This document shows, piece by piece, positions 22,400 to 27,450 of a stretch of DNA of 64,000 nucleotides. Every line of letters begins with the position of its first letter. Position 1 is the first letter of the stretch. This DNA is from Clostridium sp. 'deep sea' (GTDB lineage: Bacteria; Bacillota; UBA994; PWPR01): assembly GCF_014931565.1 (NCBI RefSeq), contig NZ_CP063353.1:3038001-3102000 (forward strand). The letters run 5' to 3'. The position numbers and the translations under genes were made by a program. Under the pieces are notes generated by a model. The model worked only from the letters and a program-made list of their open reading frames with translations. It was not told the DNA's origin and did not search any database.

Positions 22400-22456
22400 G
22401 GTTATATAAGACTAATTAACTATTAAATTATAGTTTATTATATTTATTATGTTAAG

Positions 22457-22682
22457 AAGTCTCAGTATCTATAATATTAAGATTTTTTATATTTATTATT
22501 ATCAAAAATACTTACGAAAGGAGTGAAAACTATGAAGTACAAAACTCCTAGCTTAATTAGTATTGAAGAGATATCTAGAGGATGTAGTGGTGGTAACTGC
22601 TGTAATGGCAAGCCAGGTCAAGAGCTAGAACAAAGATAGTTAATAACAACTTAATTTAAGCTAATATAGATGGCTGAGACTT
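22457..22682 (+). repeat. Inverted arms enclosing precursor gene 1
   Basis: AAGTCTCAGTATCTATA (22457-22473) can pair with TATAGATGGCTGAGACTT (22665-22682): nine perfect pairs, a one-base bulge beside a G-U pair, then seven more pairs. A short T-run follows the downstream arm. The two arms enclose the whole precursor gene. The copy around precursor 2 has the same layout. Confidence 0.7.
22532..22639 (+). CDS. Cys-rich RiPP precursor peptide 1
   Basis: The 35-residue ORF begins MKYKTPSLISIEEISRG and continues CSGGNCCNGKPGQELEQR. GAAAGGAG lies about eight bases upstream. It matches precursor 2 (25567-25677) in leader (MKYxxP...S-EE-SRG) and core (C-x-x-G-x-CCNGKP), with three Cys at 18, 23 and 24. 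Followed by PqqD-like and radical SAM genes, it is very likely a modified peptide substrate. The modified residues and cleavage site are unknown. Cys thioether links are a plausible guess for a SPASM enzyme. Confidence 0.85.
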   Translation: MKYKTPSLISIEEISRGCSGGNCCNGKPGQELEQR

Positions 22683-22783: not shown

Positions 22784-23047
22784 ATGGATATTAGTTTAAG
22801 CGATAAATTTAAGTGGATTTTAAAAGAAAGCGGAGGTTATATTTATAGCTTTGAAGATAAAAGTGTTAAAGTTATTAATGAAACAGGGGTCTATATTTTA
22901 CAAAACATAACAAATTGCAGTATGGAAGAGTTAGCAGATAATATGACTGAACGTTATAAAGATACTAAGAGAGAAGACCTATACAGAGATATAAATAGCT
23001 TTATAAACCAATTGCAGTCGGAGGGTTATTTATGCGTAAACAAATAG
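22784..23047 (+). CDS. PqqD-like RiPP recognition protein
   Basis: The 87-residue protein has the PqqD pattern: KSVKVINETGVYILQNITNC followed by SMEELADNMTERYKD and a final helix DINSFINQLQSEGYLCVNK. PqqD-type domains bind the leader peptide and present it to the radical SAM enzyme. The ATG follows TTAGGAGGG. Its end overlaps the next gene by 16 bases, so the two are likely made together. Confidence 0.88.
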   Translation: MDISLSDKFKWILKESGGYIYSFEDKSVKVINETGVYILQNITNCSMEELADNMTERYKDTKREDLYRDINSFINQLQSEGYLCVNK

Positions 23048-24087
23048 ACAGACTTTACATAACCCTTACAAATCAATGTAATATGAGATGTCCACATTGC
23101 TGGATATCAGCAGGTGAGGCTCATGATGAAAGAAAAATTGAGTTTAGGGAGTATAAAAACGTAATTGATTCTTTATTAAATTATGGTCTTAAAACAATTA
23201 AAGTAACTGGTGGAGAGCCACTCATCAAAAAAGACTTAGTTAAATCATTATTAGCCTATTGTAATGAAAAATCTTTAAGCTTTAACGTAGAAACAAATGG
23301 CTTACTTATAGATGATGAATATCTTGAGTTATTTAAAAATGCTAAAGATATAGAGCTAGGCTTAAGCTTAGATTTTCCCAATGACATGCATGATAGCTTT
23401 AGAAAGTTTCCAGATGCATTTAACATTATAAAAAATGTTTTAATTAAGCTCAATAAAAATAATATATCAAACTCAGTCGTAATGACTGTTCATAAAGGCA
23501 ACTATCACTTTATGGAGCAGCTTGCCGACTTAGTAATAGGTGAGTTTGGTGGTACATTTGTTAAGTACCTAGTTTGTAGAGAATCTGGAAGAGCAGAAAC
23601 AGAAATGCTTAATGAGTTATTAAATCCTAGTGAAATAATCAATTTCTATAAAGAAGTGATTAGAATAGCCCATAAATACCCCAAAAAAATAACGGCTATG
23701 ATTCCAACCGCATTCCAAGAAATAGATAGCGAATTAATTGTTGGAACATGTGATTTTGATAAAATAATTAGTGTTTTACCAGATGGCTCTATAGCATTAT
23801 GTGGCATTGGTATTAACAACCCCGAAACTGTCTTAGGTAAAATTAGTGTAGATTCTATTTCAAATATCGTTGAAAACAACATGCTTTTAGAGAAAATAAG
23901 AAGTCAGAACAAAGTATATACCGGAGTATGTGGGGTTTGTATTTTTAACAAAGTTTGTGCCAATATTTGTCCTGCAAGCTCTTACTCGTCATATAATACC
24001 TATTTTGGGCCATATCCTATTTGCCAAAAACTATATGAAGCTGGTTTATTCCCTCAAGAATATGTTATTGGTGAAGCAGCTGTATGA
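23032..24087 (+). CDS. Radical SAM/SPASM peptide maturase
   Basis: The 351-residue enzyme has the radical SAM [4Fe-4S] motif C16-NMR-C20-PH-C23 and the SAM-binding VTGGEPL at ~59-65. The C-terminal SPASM region has many Cys (GTCDF, ALCGIG, GVCGVCIFNKVCANICPASS and PICQKL) to hold auxiliary clusters. SPASM enzymes make thioether, C-C or related links in peptides. It overlaps the PqqD-like gene and the next gene (ATGA). This is the presumed catalyst acting on the two Cys-rich precursors. Confidence 0.92.
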   Translation: MRKQIDRLYITLTNQCNMRCPHCWISAGEAHDERKIEFREYKNVIDSLLNYGLKTIKVTGGEPLIKKDLVKSLLAYCNEKSLSFNVETNGLLIDDEYLELFKNAKDIELGLSLDFPNDMHDSFRKFPDAFNIIKNVLIKLNKNNISNSVVMTVHKGNYHFMEQLADLVIGEFGGTFVKYLVCRESGRAETEMLNELLNPSEIINFYKEVIRIAHKYPKKITAMIPTAFQEIDSELIVGTCDFDKIISVLPDGSIALCGIGINNPETVLGKISVDSISNIVENNMLLEKIRSQNKVYTGVCGVCIFNKVCANICPASSYSSYNTYFGPYPICQKLYEAGLFPQEYVIGEAAV

Positions 24088-24986
24088 TAGAACTAGATAC
24101 CTTATACCTCAGATTTGCAGACAGTATAGCTATTAACGAACACTTAATAATAAAGGGTATTAAAGAAGCCAAAGAGCTAAGTGCTAAAAACATCAAGTTT
24201 TTTGGTAACTCTACCAGAGATAAAGAGCTTTTTAAACGACTAGTAAAACAAATTGTGGCGTTAAATATGGCTGTTGAAATAGACATTAATATAACTGATA
24301 TTGATTTAGAGTTAGTAGAATTCATTAAAGAGCATGCCGCCTCAGTTAAATTTGGTTTAAATATAACGCCCCCCTATAACTTAAATGATATAAACATTAA
24401 TTGTAAGGGTTTATTAGTAAATATAAATATCAACAACAATAATATTAATTTTATACCAGATATTATAGATAGCTATATCTATAAACATGGCTTTAGAAGA
24501 GTAAAGCTTTACTTTAATCTACATAGTCTTGATTACGATAAATATCAAAATTTAGTAAAGTATATCTTACAACACTACAGTGAATATGGAGATAAGTTAT
24601 ATACTGCCATTCCCTATGTCTTTTTAGAGCAGCGTAATCTAAAACTAGCACGCAGAGTATGTAATTATCATAAAGTAGTAGGTCTGTTTACGGACGGTGT
24701 AATTACTGCATGTGGTATTAAAAGAAGTAGATCTGATGAATCTTATAATTTGAAACAAAAAAGCTTACTACAAATAATTACTTCGCATGAAAAAATAATA
24801 AAATTACACCAAATGAAACCCAGTGATTTAGTAGGTGTTTGTAAAATTTGTGTATTTAAAAATTACTGTGGCAATATTTGCCCAGCAGCAGTATATAACC
24901 ATAGTGGTGCTTTTAACAAGTCATTTAGAGATTGTCAGCTACTATACGATAAGGGGTTATTTCCAAATGAATATCTTACAGTCTAA
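24084..24986 (+). CDS. SPASM protein lacking the radical SAM motif (pseudo-maturase)
   Basis: The 300-residue protein parallels the preceding maturase: both open with an x-LY-x-x-(T/A) strand and end in a near-identical SPASM tail (GVCKICVFKNYCGNICPAAV, then RDCQLLYDKGLFPNEY). Where the maturase has CNMRCPHC this protein has no Cys at all (RFADSIAINEH), and GGEP is replaced by GNST. It probably cannot bind the SAM cluster but could bind auxiliary clusters. It starts at ATG 24084 overlapping the previous stop. A structural or substrate-binding partner role is inferred. Confidence 0.8.
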   Translation: MIELDTLYLRFADSIAINEHLIIKGIKEAKELSAKNIKFFGNSTRDKELFKRLVKQIVALNMAVEIDINITDIDLELVEFIKEHAASVKFGLNITPPYNLNDININCKGLLVNININNNNINFIPDIIDSYIYKHGFRRVKLYFNLHSLDYDKYQNLVKYILQHYSEYGDKLYTAIPYVFLEQRNLKLARRVCNYHKVVGLFTDGVITACGIKRSRSDESYNLKQKSLLQIITSHEKIIKLHQMKPSDLVGVCKICVFKNYCGNICPAAVYNHSGAFNKSFRDCQLLYDKGLFPNEYLTV

Positions 24987-25470
24987 TTCTTTGTTACCTT
25001 TAGAAACAAAAAATTGTTTAGACATAAATATAGATCACGAGTGGTTTATTACAAAAAGCTATAACATTAACATGCAAAACTTAAGTGAACTGCAACGATT
25101 TGTTATGGAATTTAAAAGGCAAGATTTAAACAACCTTGTTGAATGTTACTGGGGTAATAAACAGGTTAAGTATGGAATTTGTTATAAGTACTCAACTGTT
25201 TTGTGTGCATTATTATTAAAGAACTTTGCAAAAAAAGATATATATGTATTGATATGTCACGATACAGGGCATAATTTTTATAACTCTATTCATGCATCTG
25301 TAATATATTTATTAAATGATCAATGGATTGAAATTGATTTAACGAAAGAAAAAGCTGAATTAGCTGTTAGCACAATACCTCTTGAGGCAATGGCAGATAG
25401 AGTAATATGCTTATTTAACAATAATACCAGCTTTATTAACATAAACAAAAATTTAAGCTATCAAGTTTAA
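24967..25470 (+). CDS. Transglutaminase-like cysteine protein, candidate leader peptidase
   Basis: Using the ATG at 24967, 20 bases before the previous stop, the product is 167 residues. An open frame extends to 24835 inside the preceding gene but is unlikely. The transglutaminase/papain core pattern is visible: C72 in YGICYKYSTVLCALLL, H109 in NSIHASVIYLL and D124 in DQWIEIDLT. In lasso-peptide systems a protein of this fold (B2) cuts the leader. The same role is proposed here by analogy. Confidence 0.65.
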   Translation: MNILQSNSLLPLETKNCLDINIDHEWFITKSYNINMQNLSELQRFVMEFKRQDLNNLVECYWGNKQVKYGICYKYSTVLCALLLKNFAKKDIYVLICHDTGHNFYNSIHASVIYLLNDQWIEIDLTKEKAELAVSTIPLEAMADRVICLFNNNTSFININKNLSYQV

Positions 25471-25490
25471 CTAATGAGTATGCGTTTATA

Positions 25491-25709
25491 AAGTCTCTGG
25501 TATCTATTAAGTGTATTATAGTAGTTAATTTTATTAACCAAATTACATAGGAAAGGAGGGATAAATGTGAAATACAACGTACCTAGAATTAAATCTTTAG
25601 AAGAAGTATCAAGAGGTTGTGGTGCAGGAGATTGTTGTAATGGTAAACCAACAGAGCCCGAGCAGAAATTTAATTAAAGTCTAACTTAATAAATAGATAC
25701 TAGAGACTT
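25491..25709 (+). repeat. Inverted arms enclosing precursor gene 2
   Basis: AAGTCTCTGGTATCTATT (25491-25508) and AATAGATACTAGAGACTT (25692-25709) pair along all 18 bases, with one G-U, and eight T follow including the last two arm bases. The loop would contain the entire precursor gene. The downstream arm plus T-run may also act as a terminator. Compared with precursor 1, the base changes in the arms compensate each other. Confidence 0.75.
25567..25677 (+). CDS. Cys-rich RiPP precursor peptide 2
   Basis: The start is GTG at 25567, six bases after AAAGGAGGG. The 36-residue peptide starts MKYNVPRIKSLEEVSRG and continues CGAGDCCNGKPTEPEQKFN. It is a paralog of precursor 1 with all three Cys and CCNGKP kept while flanking residues differ, a pattern of selection on the core. 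It lies between the maturation genes and the ABC exporter. Confidence 0.85.
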   Translation: MKYNVPRIKSLEEVSRGCGAGDCCNGKPTEPEQKFN

Positions 25710-25754
25710 TTTTTTTATAAGTCTAGTAAAACCAAAATTATGAGGAATATTATA

Positions 25755-26684
25755 ATGGAAAATATATTTAAGATAAAAAATGTTTGTAAAACATATAAAA
25801 ATGGTGTACAAGCTAATAATAATATTTGTTTAAACATTGATAAAGGCGAAATATTTGGTTTATTTGGCCCAAATGGTGCGGGAAAAACTACCCTTATTAA
25901 ACAAATAACTACCCTAATAAAGCCTACGTCAGGTACTATTGATATATTTGGTAAAGACCTTTATGAGAATATTCCTTTAGCTATTAACAATATTTCTTAT
26001 TTAGGACAAGCTACAGCTGCTTTCTCAACATATAGATTCGAAGATGTTATTTTACATGCTGGTATGCATAGGGGATTATCTAAAAAAGAAACTATAAAGC
26101 AAACAAATTATTTAATCGATAGATTTAATATGAATAAAAAAAGAAAAAGACTAAGATATCAGTTATCAGGGGGAGAGCGTAAGCTTTCTATGTTATTGGC
26201 TACTTTTATAGGTAATAATCCAATCTTAATATTAGATGAGCCCACTAATCAACTTGACCCACGACACAGAGCGAAGGTTTGGCAATATCTTATAGAACTA
26301 AATAAAGAGCAAAATACAACAATTGTTTTAGTAACTCACAATGTAATAGAAGCAGAAAATGTGATAAATAGAGTAGCTATTATTGATGACGGCAAGATTT
26401 GCGCTAATGGTTCACAGGGTGAATTAAAAAAACAGGTAAGTGACGAGGTAAAAATTATAGTTACATTTAAAGGTCAAGTTGATTTAAGTAACATTAAAAA
26501 TGAATACAAACAAATCCAAAAAGATAAGTATTGCATTTATACCGATAGCTCTAATATGTCTGTTGTATTCGACTCCCTAGTTAAATCAGTAGGTTTAACA
26601 AAAATCGACGATTTTAGAGTAACCACACCAACCCTAGAGGATGTTTATACTAAACTAACAAGGAGAGAGTGGGATGGAAAATAA
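25755..26684 (+). CDS. ABC transporter ATP-binding protein, likely peptide export
   Basis: The 309-residue ATPase (from ATG 25755 with GAGG upstream; ATG 25740 is an alternative) has Walker A GPNGAGKTT, signature LSGGERK and Walker B ILILDEPTNQLD, plus a C-terminal extension usual in ABC-2 drug or bacteriocin transporters. It overlaps the permease gene by 11 bases. Its place after precursor 2 suggests export of, or immunity to, the mature peptide. Confidence 0.88.
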   Translation: MENIFKIKNVCKTYKNGVQANNNICLNIDKGEIFGLFGPNGAGKTTLIKQITTLIKPTSGTIDIFGKDLYENIPLAINNISYLGQATAAFSTYRFEDVILHAGMHRGLSKKETIKQTNYLIDRFNMNKKRKRLRYQLSGGERKLSMLLATFIGNNPILILDEPTNQLDPRHRAKVWQYLIELNKEQNTTIVLVTHNVIEAENVINRVAIIDDGKICANGSQGELKKQVSDEVKIIVTFKGQVDLSNIKNEYKQIQKDKYCIYTDSSNMSVVFDSLVKSVGLTKIDDFRVTTPTLEDVYTKLTRREWDGK

Positions 26685-27450
26685 TAAAATTAAAAAATTC
26701 TTTATAGACTACTGGTGGATACTAAAAGGTAAACTGTATGATATGCGTCTTGAGTGGAAATTTTACATAATACTAATTTCTCTATCTCCATTAAGCTACT
26801 TATTTTTCCTATGGTTTTATGGAGGCATGGGTGATTATAGTAAAAATCTCTATATAGTAACTGGTTCGGTGGCTAATAGTGCTGTAACAGCAGCAATGCT
26901 TGGGTTAGGGCAAAGCATTGGTTCTTTGCGTTTAAGCCACGTTATGGAATACTACGCTACTTATCCTATTTCCAAACTATCTTTTATACTTGCTTTAGCT
27001 AGTAAGGGCGTGATATTTTCTATTCCATCAGCAATTATAATATTAGTAATAGGTGGTCCAGTATTAGGGGTTCCAGTTATATCGAACCTTATTCCAATCT
27101 TTATTGTTTACTTTGCTGGTGCCTTTAGCTTAGCTGGATTGGGTGCAATCATTGGTTTTTATGGGTCTACCCCTTACTCATCCAGTATGATAACTCAAAT
27201 AGTTAGTCCCTTAATAGTTTTATTTGCTCCTGTTTATTTTCCACTATTTAAATTGCCAAGATTTTTGCAAATAAGCTCACATGTAATTCCAACTACCTAT
27301 GTAGCGAGGGGCATGCGTCAGGCTATAACTACCCCTTATAGTACAGGCTATTGGTTAAATATTTTAATACTTTTAGGCTTCACTATAGTTGGTTTAGTAG
27401 CCAGTGTTTATAAAACATCTTGGCGTGTTACATCAACAGAAGCCAAATAA
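26674..27450 (+). CDS. ABC-2 type permease, likely peptide export
   Basis: The 258-residue protein has about six hydrophobic segments and the ABC-2 layout (long cytosolic start IKKFFIDYWWILKGKLYDMR, then membrane pairs). It lacks a peptidase domain, so leader removal must be done by another protein such as the transglutaminase-like neighbour. It overlaps the ATPase gene and ends the cluster before a terminator. Confidence 0.87.
   Translation: MENNKIKKFFIDYWWILKGKLYDMRLEWKFYIILISLSPLSYLFFLWFYGGMGDYSKNLYIVTGSVANSAVTAAMLGLGQSIGSLRLSHVMEYYATYPISKLSFILALASKGVIFSIPSAIIILVIGGPVLGVPVISNLIPIFIVYFAGAFSLAGLGAIIGFYGSTPYSSSMITQIVSPLIVLFAPVYFPLFKLPRFLQISSHVIPTTYVARGMRQAITTPYSTGYWLNILILLGFTIVGLVASVYKTSWRVTSTEAK

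Follow-up and report, generated by a model that had tools for sequence, protein, structure and literature searches.

We found that a maturase of one peptide-modification cassette family was duplicated once, and that one of the two copies shed the loop carrying the SAM/4Fe-4S site together with the SAM-binding motifs. In three genomes this dead copy has kept the half-barrel fold, seven SPASM cysteines and its operon position. On balance, we expect that it works as the dedicated partner of the active maturase, with a role that involves clusters, thiols or electrons. A more specific proposal is that it is a dedicated non-catalytic iron-sulfur subunit, in which a paralogue without a SAM site supplies auxiliary clusters in trans for short Cx4-5CC peptides of a class not yet described. 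We regard this version as tentative, with the chances slightly against it. The window, i.e., the whole 64,000-nucleotide stretch of DNA from Clostridium sp. 'deep sea' that was analysed, contains the following features of the cassette.

22532..22639, + strand: precursor peptide 1, MKYKTPSLISIEEISRGCSGGNCCNGKPGQELEQR (open reading frame, strong Shine-Dalgarno sequence, recurring consensus)
22784..23047, + strand: PqqD-like RiPP recognition element, or RRE (Pfam PqqD, 1.7e-11)
23032..24087, + strand: active-type radical SAM/SPASM peptide maturase (Pfam Radical_SAM, 2.9e-24; SPASM, 1.3e-4)
24084..24986, + strand: radical SAM pseudoenzyme lacking the cysteines of the SAM site, with intact SPASM tail (sequence, alignments, AlphaFold2 model)
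24660..24935, + strand: SPASM region of the pseudoenzyme (motif scan)
24967..25470, + strand: transglutaminase/papain-like protein (alignment of four members, Pfam, weak fold matches)
25567..25677, + strand: precursor peptide 2, MKYNVPRIKSLEEVSRGCGAGDCCNGKPTEPEQKFN, GTG start (open reading frame, strong ribosome site, recurring consensus)
25740..26684, + strand: ABC transporter ATPase for export or immunity (Pfam ABC_tran, 7.4e-28; equivalent position in loci L032 and L121)
26674..27450, + strand: ABC-2 type permease (Pfam ABC2_membrane_3, 1e-12; equivalent position in L032 and L121)

The coordinates given for the pseudoenzyme gene in a preliminary description are correct: an ATG at 24084 and a stop at 24986 delimit 300 codons for amino acids, and the start shares bases with the maturase stop in an ATGA overlap. 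Judging by its sequence, the protein is a paralogue of the preceding maturase (23032-24087), with 27% identity over residues 35-298 (BLASTP, E 3e-23). The maturase itself has CxxxCxxC at residues 16-23, GGEP at residue 60 and a seven-cysteine SPASM motif from residue 240. The preliminary description had noticed that the CxxxCxxC stretch of the second protein is free of cysteine and that GGEP has become GNST, and a motif scan bore out both points. Alignment with the maturase further reveals that the CxxxCxxC loop was deleted and not mutated, with roughly 20 residues gone after strand 1, and that a second deletion of about 20 residues follows strand 4.

The auxiliary-cluster tail was also described as retained, and indeed all seven SPASM cysteines are present, in the arrangement C193-x11-G-x4-C210, C253-x2-C256-x5-C262-x3-C266, C284 (codons at 24660, 24711, 24840, 24849, 24867, 24879 and 24933). 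The protein has eight cysteines in total, the eighth of which, C107, is not conserved. Alignment with PapB (PMC10470005) and with TrnC/CteB suggests that C193, C210 and C266 would hold the Aux I cluster and C253, C256, C262 and C284 the Aux II cluster. The corresponding PapB ligands are C352, C370 and C421, and C408, C411, C417 and C440, respectively (PMC10470005). Two orthologues with 29-31% identity exhibit both the loss of the catalytic motifs and the kept cysteines, so the combination exceeds chance.

Pfam has no match for the pseudoenzyme, either with PF04055 (Radical_SAM) or with PF13186 (SPASM), and NCBIfam TIGR04085 gives 23.6 bits against a cut-off of 27. ScmF is the top NCBIfam model for either protein, at 40.9 bits for the pseudoenzyme and 168.2 bits for the maturase (E 3.3e-49); both stay below the 400-bit equivalog cut-off, and neither protein reaches the 400 bits required of ScmE or ScmF members. 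Because Pfam is empty and all SPASM-type NCBIfam matches are sub-threshold, standard annotation would miss the identity of the pseudoenzyme. The CxxxCxxC signature of the radical SAM superfamily is absent from all three partners, and the SPASM pattern Cx9-15Gx4C...Cx2Cx5Cx3C...C is found in all three. By descent and by its partial TIM-barrel fold, as judged from the tree and an AlphaFold2 model, the pseudoenzyme belongs to the superfamily.

This single-chain model, built with 14 related sequences, has a mean pLDDT of 86.6 and a pTM of 0.84, and it informs on the fold only, being silent on clusters. Its structural neighbours are CteB (Z 18.8, 3.4 Å, 266 residues), TigE (18.8, 3.8 Å, 278 residues), PqqE (18.2, 4.2 Å, 277 residues), SuiB (17.7) and anSME (16.9). 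Matches to the first four have Z of 17-19 over 266-281 residues, and all five span residues 1 to about 290. The model thus confidently predicts a radical SAM half-barrel with a SPASM domain, although its input alignment favours this fold since some of the family sequences are active enzymes. A sequence search of the PDB with a partner profile yielded no match at E 0.01.

The same order of six genes, namely PqqD-like RRE, maturase, partner without the SAM-site cysteines, transglutaminase-like protease, ABC ATPase and permease, occurs in the window and in two genomes of another class in the same phylum. An initial scan of genome contigs with a two-row alignment had found no relative. A scan with a four-row alignment, using one genome per species, detected JAMCWA010000084.1 (L032), a Bacillota metagenome-assembled genome. 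Its RRE is 38% identical to that of the window over 76 residues, its maturase is 40% identical, and the product of the gene after the maturase shares 29% identity with the window partner (E 6e-48). This protein lacks CxxxCxxC, has all seven SPASM cysteines, and is followed by protease, ATPase and permease as in the window. A search of 154 genomes of the L032 class gave the third complete cassette (genome G436, locus L121). Phylum samples of 398 and 397 genomes, which overlap, and a class of 7 genomes contained no further partner, and the partner is therefore rare; three copies were found, including one or more from metagenome-assembled genomes. Scans of viral contigs and a tblastn search of plasmids with the partner revealed no relatives. 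Plasmid matches of the maturase were distant radical SAM proteins without a dead neighbour, as judged from the neighbourhood of one Rhizobium locus.

One related cassette dispenses with the partner. In genome G409 (L122:7450-9470, minus strand), an RRE, a maturase, a protease and two ABC exporters occur with no partner, so a partner is not a constant requirement of this family's chemistry. The L122 precursor differs in its ending, DCKCGCCFIVGQ (DCKCGCC), and has a WxxP leader.

The three partners group as a single clade (support 100/100) in a maximum-likelihood tree, nested with the cassette maturases, including that of L122 (95/93); branches are long and leave the exact branching point among the maturases unfixed. 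The tree therefore indicates a single duplication and a single loss of the catalytic loop. Identity among the partners is 42-50% in the SPASM half and 21-33% in the barrel (Fisher p 3e-4, 5e-5 and 5e-3), while the two halves are alike in the maturases of the same genomes (41/42, 40/38 and 47/53%). Among positions present in all six proteins, the partners have 20 invariant positions in the barrel and 38 in the SPASM half, versus 49 and 36 in the maturases (Fisher p 0.01). Thus, constraint on the SPASM half is as strong in the dead protein as in the live enzyme, and the barrel of the dead protein is relaxed. The only cysteines conserved among the partners are the seven of the SPASM motif (3/3). 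This pattern is hard to reconcile with a functionless duplicate in decay: the catalytic site is gone, as decay would predict, but the frame is intact in all three genomes, with about 30% identity between copies, a constant position, seven kept cysteines and a SPASM half conserved as well as in active enzymes. We consider decay the least likely of the explanations that we weighed. The constraint on the SPASM half could also reflect structural binding of Zn or Fe-S with no part in the reaction.

The suggestion in the preliminary description that the protein is a pseudoenzyme partner is strengthened in part, in that the protein is conserved, lacks the SAM site, has an intact SPASM motif, adjoins an active maturase in all three cassettes found and is under selection focused on the SPASM half; heterodimerisation with the maturase and presentation of substrate through an iron-sulfur tail, as also suggested there, are predictions. 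The ATGA overlap points to translational coupling, and therefore to a joint complex of the two proteins. It thereby speaks against an immunity or sensor protein whose cluster binds the finished cysteine-rich peptide, so as to protect the producer or to sense the product. The shared operon with export genes and the ability of a cluster to bind thiols would suit such a role, but the partner is derived from the maturase and an ABC exporter is already there. We consider this explanation very improbable.

Several known systems resemble the window pair. Cooperating pairs of active radical SAM proteins in RiPP clusters are already known. In thuricin CD biosynthesis, a sactipeptide system, the two radical SAM proteins TrnC and TrnD form a tight complex, and a predicted model places the precursor between them (PMC12093266). 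A TrnD mutant in the RS cluster still gives full product, and double mutants in its auxiliary-cluster cysteines abolish activity (PMC12093266). Thus, as in the window, there are two radical SAM/SPASM-type proteins per RiPP cluster, and in TrnC/TrnD only one needs its SAM cluster although the auxiliary-cluster cysteines of the second are required. However, TrnD is a SAM-cleaving protein with CxxxCxxC and a TWITCH tail of only three cysteines, whereas the loop of the window partner is wholly absent and its seven-cysteine SPASM motif is complete. TrnC/TrnD-type pairs have CxxxCxxC in both proteins, and the second window protein lacks it. By this comparison, the window pair resembles a TrnC/TrnD-type partnership at its end point.

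The same precedent could be taken to mean that the partner is a structural chaperone that serves only to hold the leader or core peptide in place or to make the maturase more stable, with metal centres that are structural. The published model of TrnC/TrnD/TrnA has TrnD bound mainly to the leader (PMC12093266), and the barrel fold of the partner is predicted to be retained. However, constraint falls on the SPASM half and not on the barrel, leaders are already bound by the RRE, and the three-cysteine arrangement of Aux I is kept. A purely structural role therefore seems rather doubtful to us.

In the ranthipeptide maturase PapB, Aux I has three cysteines and binds a substrate thiol, and Aux II has four (PMC10470005). 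Each turnover requires an electron to leave one molecule and enter a SAM cluster, possibly that of another molecule, with intermolecular transfer via AC2 (PMC10470005). Both PapB clusters map one to one on the window partner, but PapB is a single active protein, and the form of it without an RS cluster was made by mutation in the laboratory. The partner might then be a natural RS-less PapB, i.e., a dedicated electron shuttle that docks transiently on the maturase, makes no contact with the precursor and passes one electron from Aux II to the SAM cluster per turnover. It keeps both auxiliary-cluster motifs with the RS cluster gone, and PapB needs intermolecular transfer, possibly between radical SAM molecules, for which a one-electron carrier suffices (PMC10470005). 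On the other hand, known systems use general carriers such as flavodoxin and FMN, a 300-amino-acid barrel is costly for a shuttle, and there would be no need for an Aux I that has an open site. We think this explanation unlikely, albeit the strongest of the rivals.

Given the TrnC/TrnD and PapB precedents, and given that the seven cysteines map one to one on the PapB clusters, we favour a complex of maturase and partner with clusters that hold thiols and/or relay electrons. The two proteins would form a hetero-oligomer, to which the PqqD-like RRE would deliver the precursor's YxxPx(I/L) leader. The maturase would generate the radical and cross-link one core cysteine (RGCxxGxCCxG) as a thioether. 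Aux I of the partner would have an open site because it has only three cysteine ligands, and Aux I and Aux II might hold another precursor thiol and/or accept and return the electron freed per cross-link. The transglutaminase-like protease would then cut off the leader, and the ABC transporter would export the product.

The precursors are 31-36 amino acids long across cassettes, with the consensus YxxPx(I/L)xxLExxxR(G/N)C..GxCCxG. Those of the window share it with precursors that adjoin cassettes in L121 and L126, and precursors adjoin the cassette in all three genomes. Just downstream of the L032 and L121 cassettes are, respectively, MEKKRYVPPEIKDLRFVARNCNSNGSCCPGHE, and MKKRRYSAPSIAPLEMIARGCATGSCCGGQN with MKKRPYTTPRIASLETITRGCATGHCCGGKN. 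The DNA pattern for CCNGKP occurs genome-wide only at the two precursor sites, and the precursors have no match in the family libraries used (Pfam, NCBIfam). The window leaders carry YxxPx(L/I), which discrete RREs bind in lasso-type systems (PMC13381572, PMC10368454); the peptidase that removes the leader in those systems is homologous to transglutaminase. This motif, the parallel in the peptidase and the recurrence of the small genes suggest that these genes encode the maturase substrates. The window is like lasso B1/B2 leader processing in its YxxPx(L/I) leader, separate PqqD-like RRE and transglutaminase-like cysteine protease, but modification falls to a radical SAM protein and there is no lasso cyclase; the asparagine-synthetase-like C protein of lasso clusters is absent from the cassette genes.

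The transglutaminase-like protein is the probable leader peptidase. A Cys-His-Asp set is conserved in the four aligned members (C71, H108 and D123 in the translation from 24970). Pfam Transglut_core matches two of the four, at best with 3.8e-4. The predicted structure has a pLDDT of 65, and its matches are LapG, arylamine N-acetyltransferases, transglutaminase and papain-like proteases at Z of at most 7.4.

In the partial literature that we searched, we found no description of a SPASM-complete partner of a peptide maturase that lacks the SAM site. The role of SPASM auxiliary clusters is an open question because their removal from the catalytic protein damages it. A set of auxiliary clusters that is complete by motif and located on a separate non-catalytic protein offers a natural test of this role via one subunit. 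In addition, thuricin CD, a known instance of two radical SAM proteins working together, now has a counterpart in which one member is fully dead, and the cassette indicates a family of very short peptides with three cysteines that lies outside the family libraries used.

Other arrangements bear partial resemblance to the window. The SynChlorMet cassette also combines a PqqD-like gene (ScmD) with two radical SAM/SPASM-type genes (ScmE and ScmF), but the window proteins score 41-168 bits against 400 and the second one has no radical SAM site. The haloarchaeal TIGR04347 family, or 'pseudo-SAM/SPASM', is likewise a named degenerate radical SAM/SPASM protein beside a radical SAM/SPASM gene and a candidate RiPP. 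With this profile (cut-off 525 bits), the window pseudoenzyme gave nothing and the L032 partner 12.8 bits. We rejected the family as a precedent: the one member examined (L135:1366-2577, between a TIGR04053 radical SAM gene and a candidate RiPP) has retained GGEP as well as CxxxCxxC, the latter at residue 49, and lacks the seven-cysteine SPASM motif, a mirror image of the partner. The family name may thus mislead.

At L015 (7314-9779), L017 and L016, a PqqD-like gene is followed by two tandem radical SAM/SPASM maturases (368 and 363 amino acids). Both members are intact at L015 and L017, which were rejected as cases of a dead partner, and the second is broken at L016. Frames without CxxxCxxC at L019 and L016 were also discarded, being fragments of broken enzymes or of intact ones split between frames. 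At L018 (10222-10317, minus strand), a possible precursor, MMKKYEKPILVALHEVASDCGICNTGGQAVA, lies near a radical SAM/SPASM maturase, ABC genes and a 336-amino-acid protein of no assigned role. The window genome has a second, unrelated-looking radical SAM/SPASM protein (G000:C1:1338157-1339125, L024; 475-amino-acid frame, 27% identity to the maturase), with an additional SPASM-like frame close by.

An Rfam search around the precursors gave no match to a known RNA element. Inverted-repeat arms of about 20 nucleotides enclose each precursor gene (22453-22682 and 25490-25710). The arms of the second unit (25490-25508 and 25692-25710) are 95% complementary and are followed by a T run, and the first unit is bulged. 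Both repeats share the core AAGTCTC..TATCTAT, which was not seen around the precursors of the relatives. These repeats could form a transcript-wide stem or be the ends of a duplicated unit.
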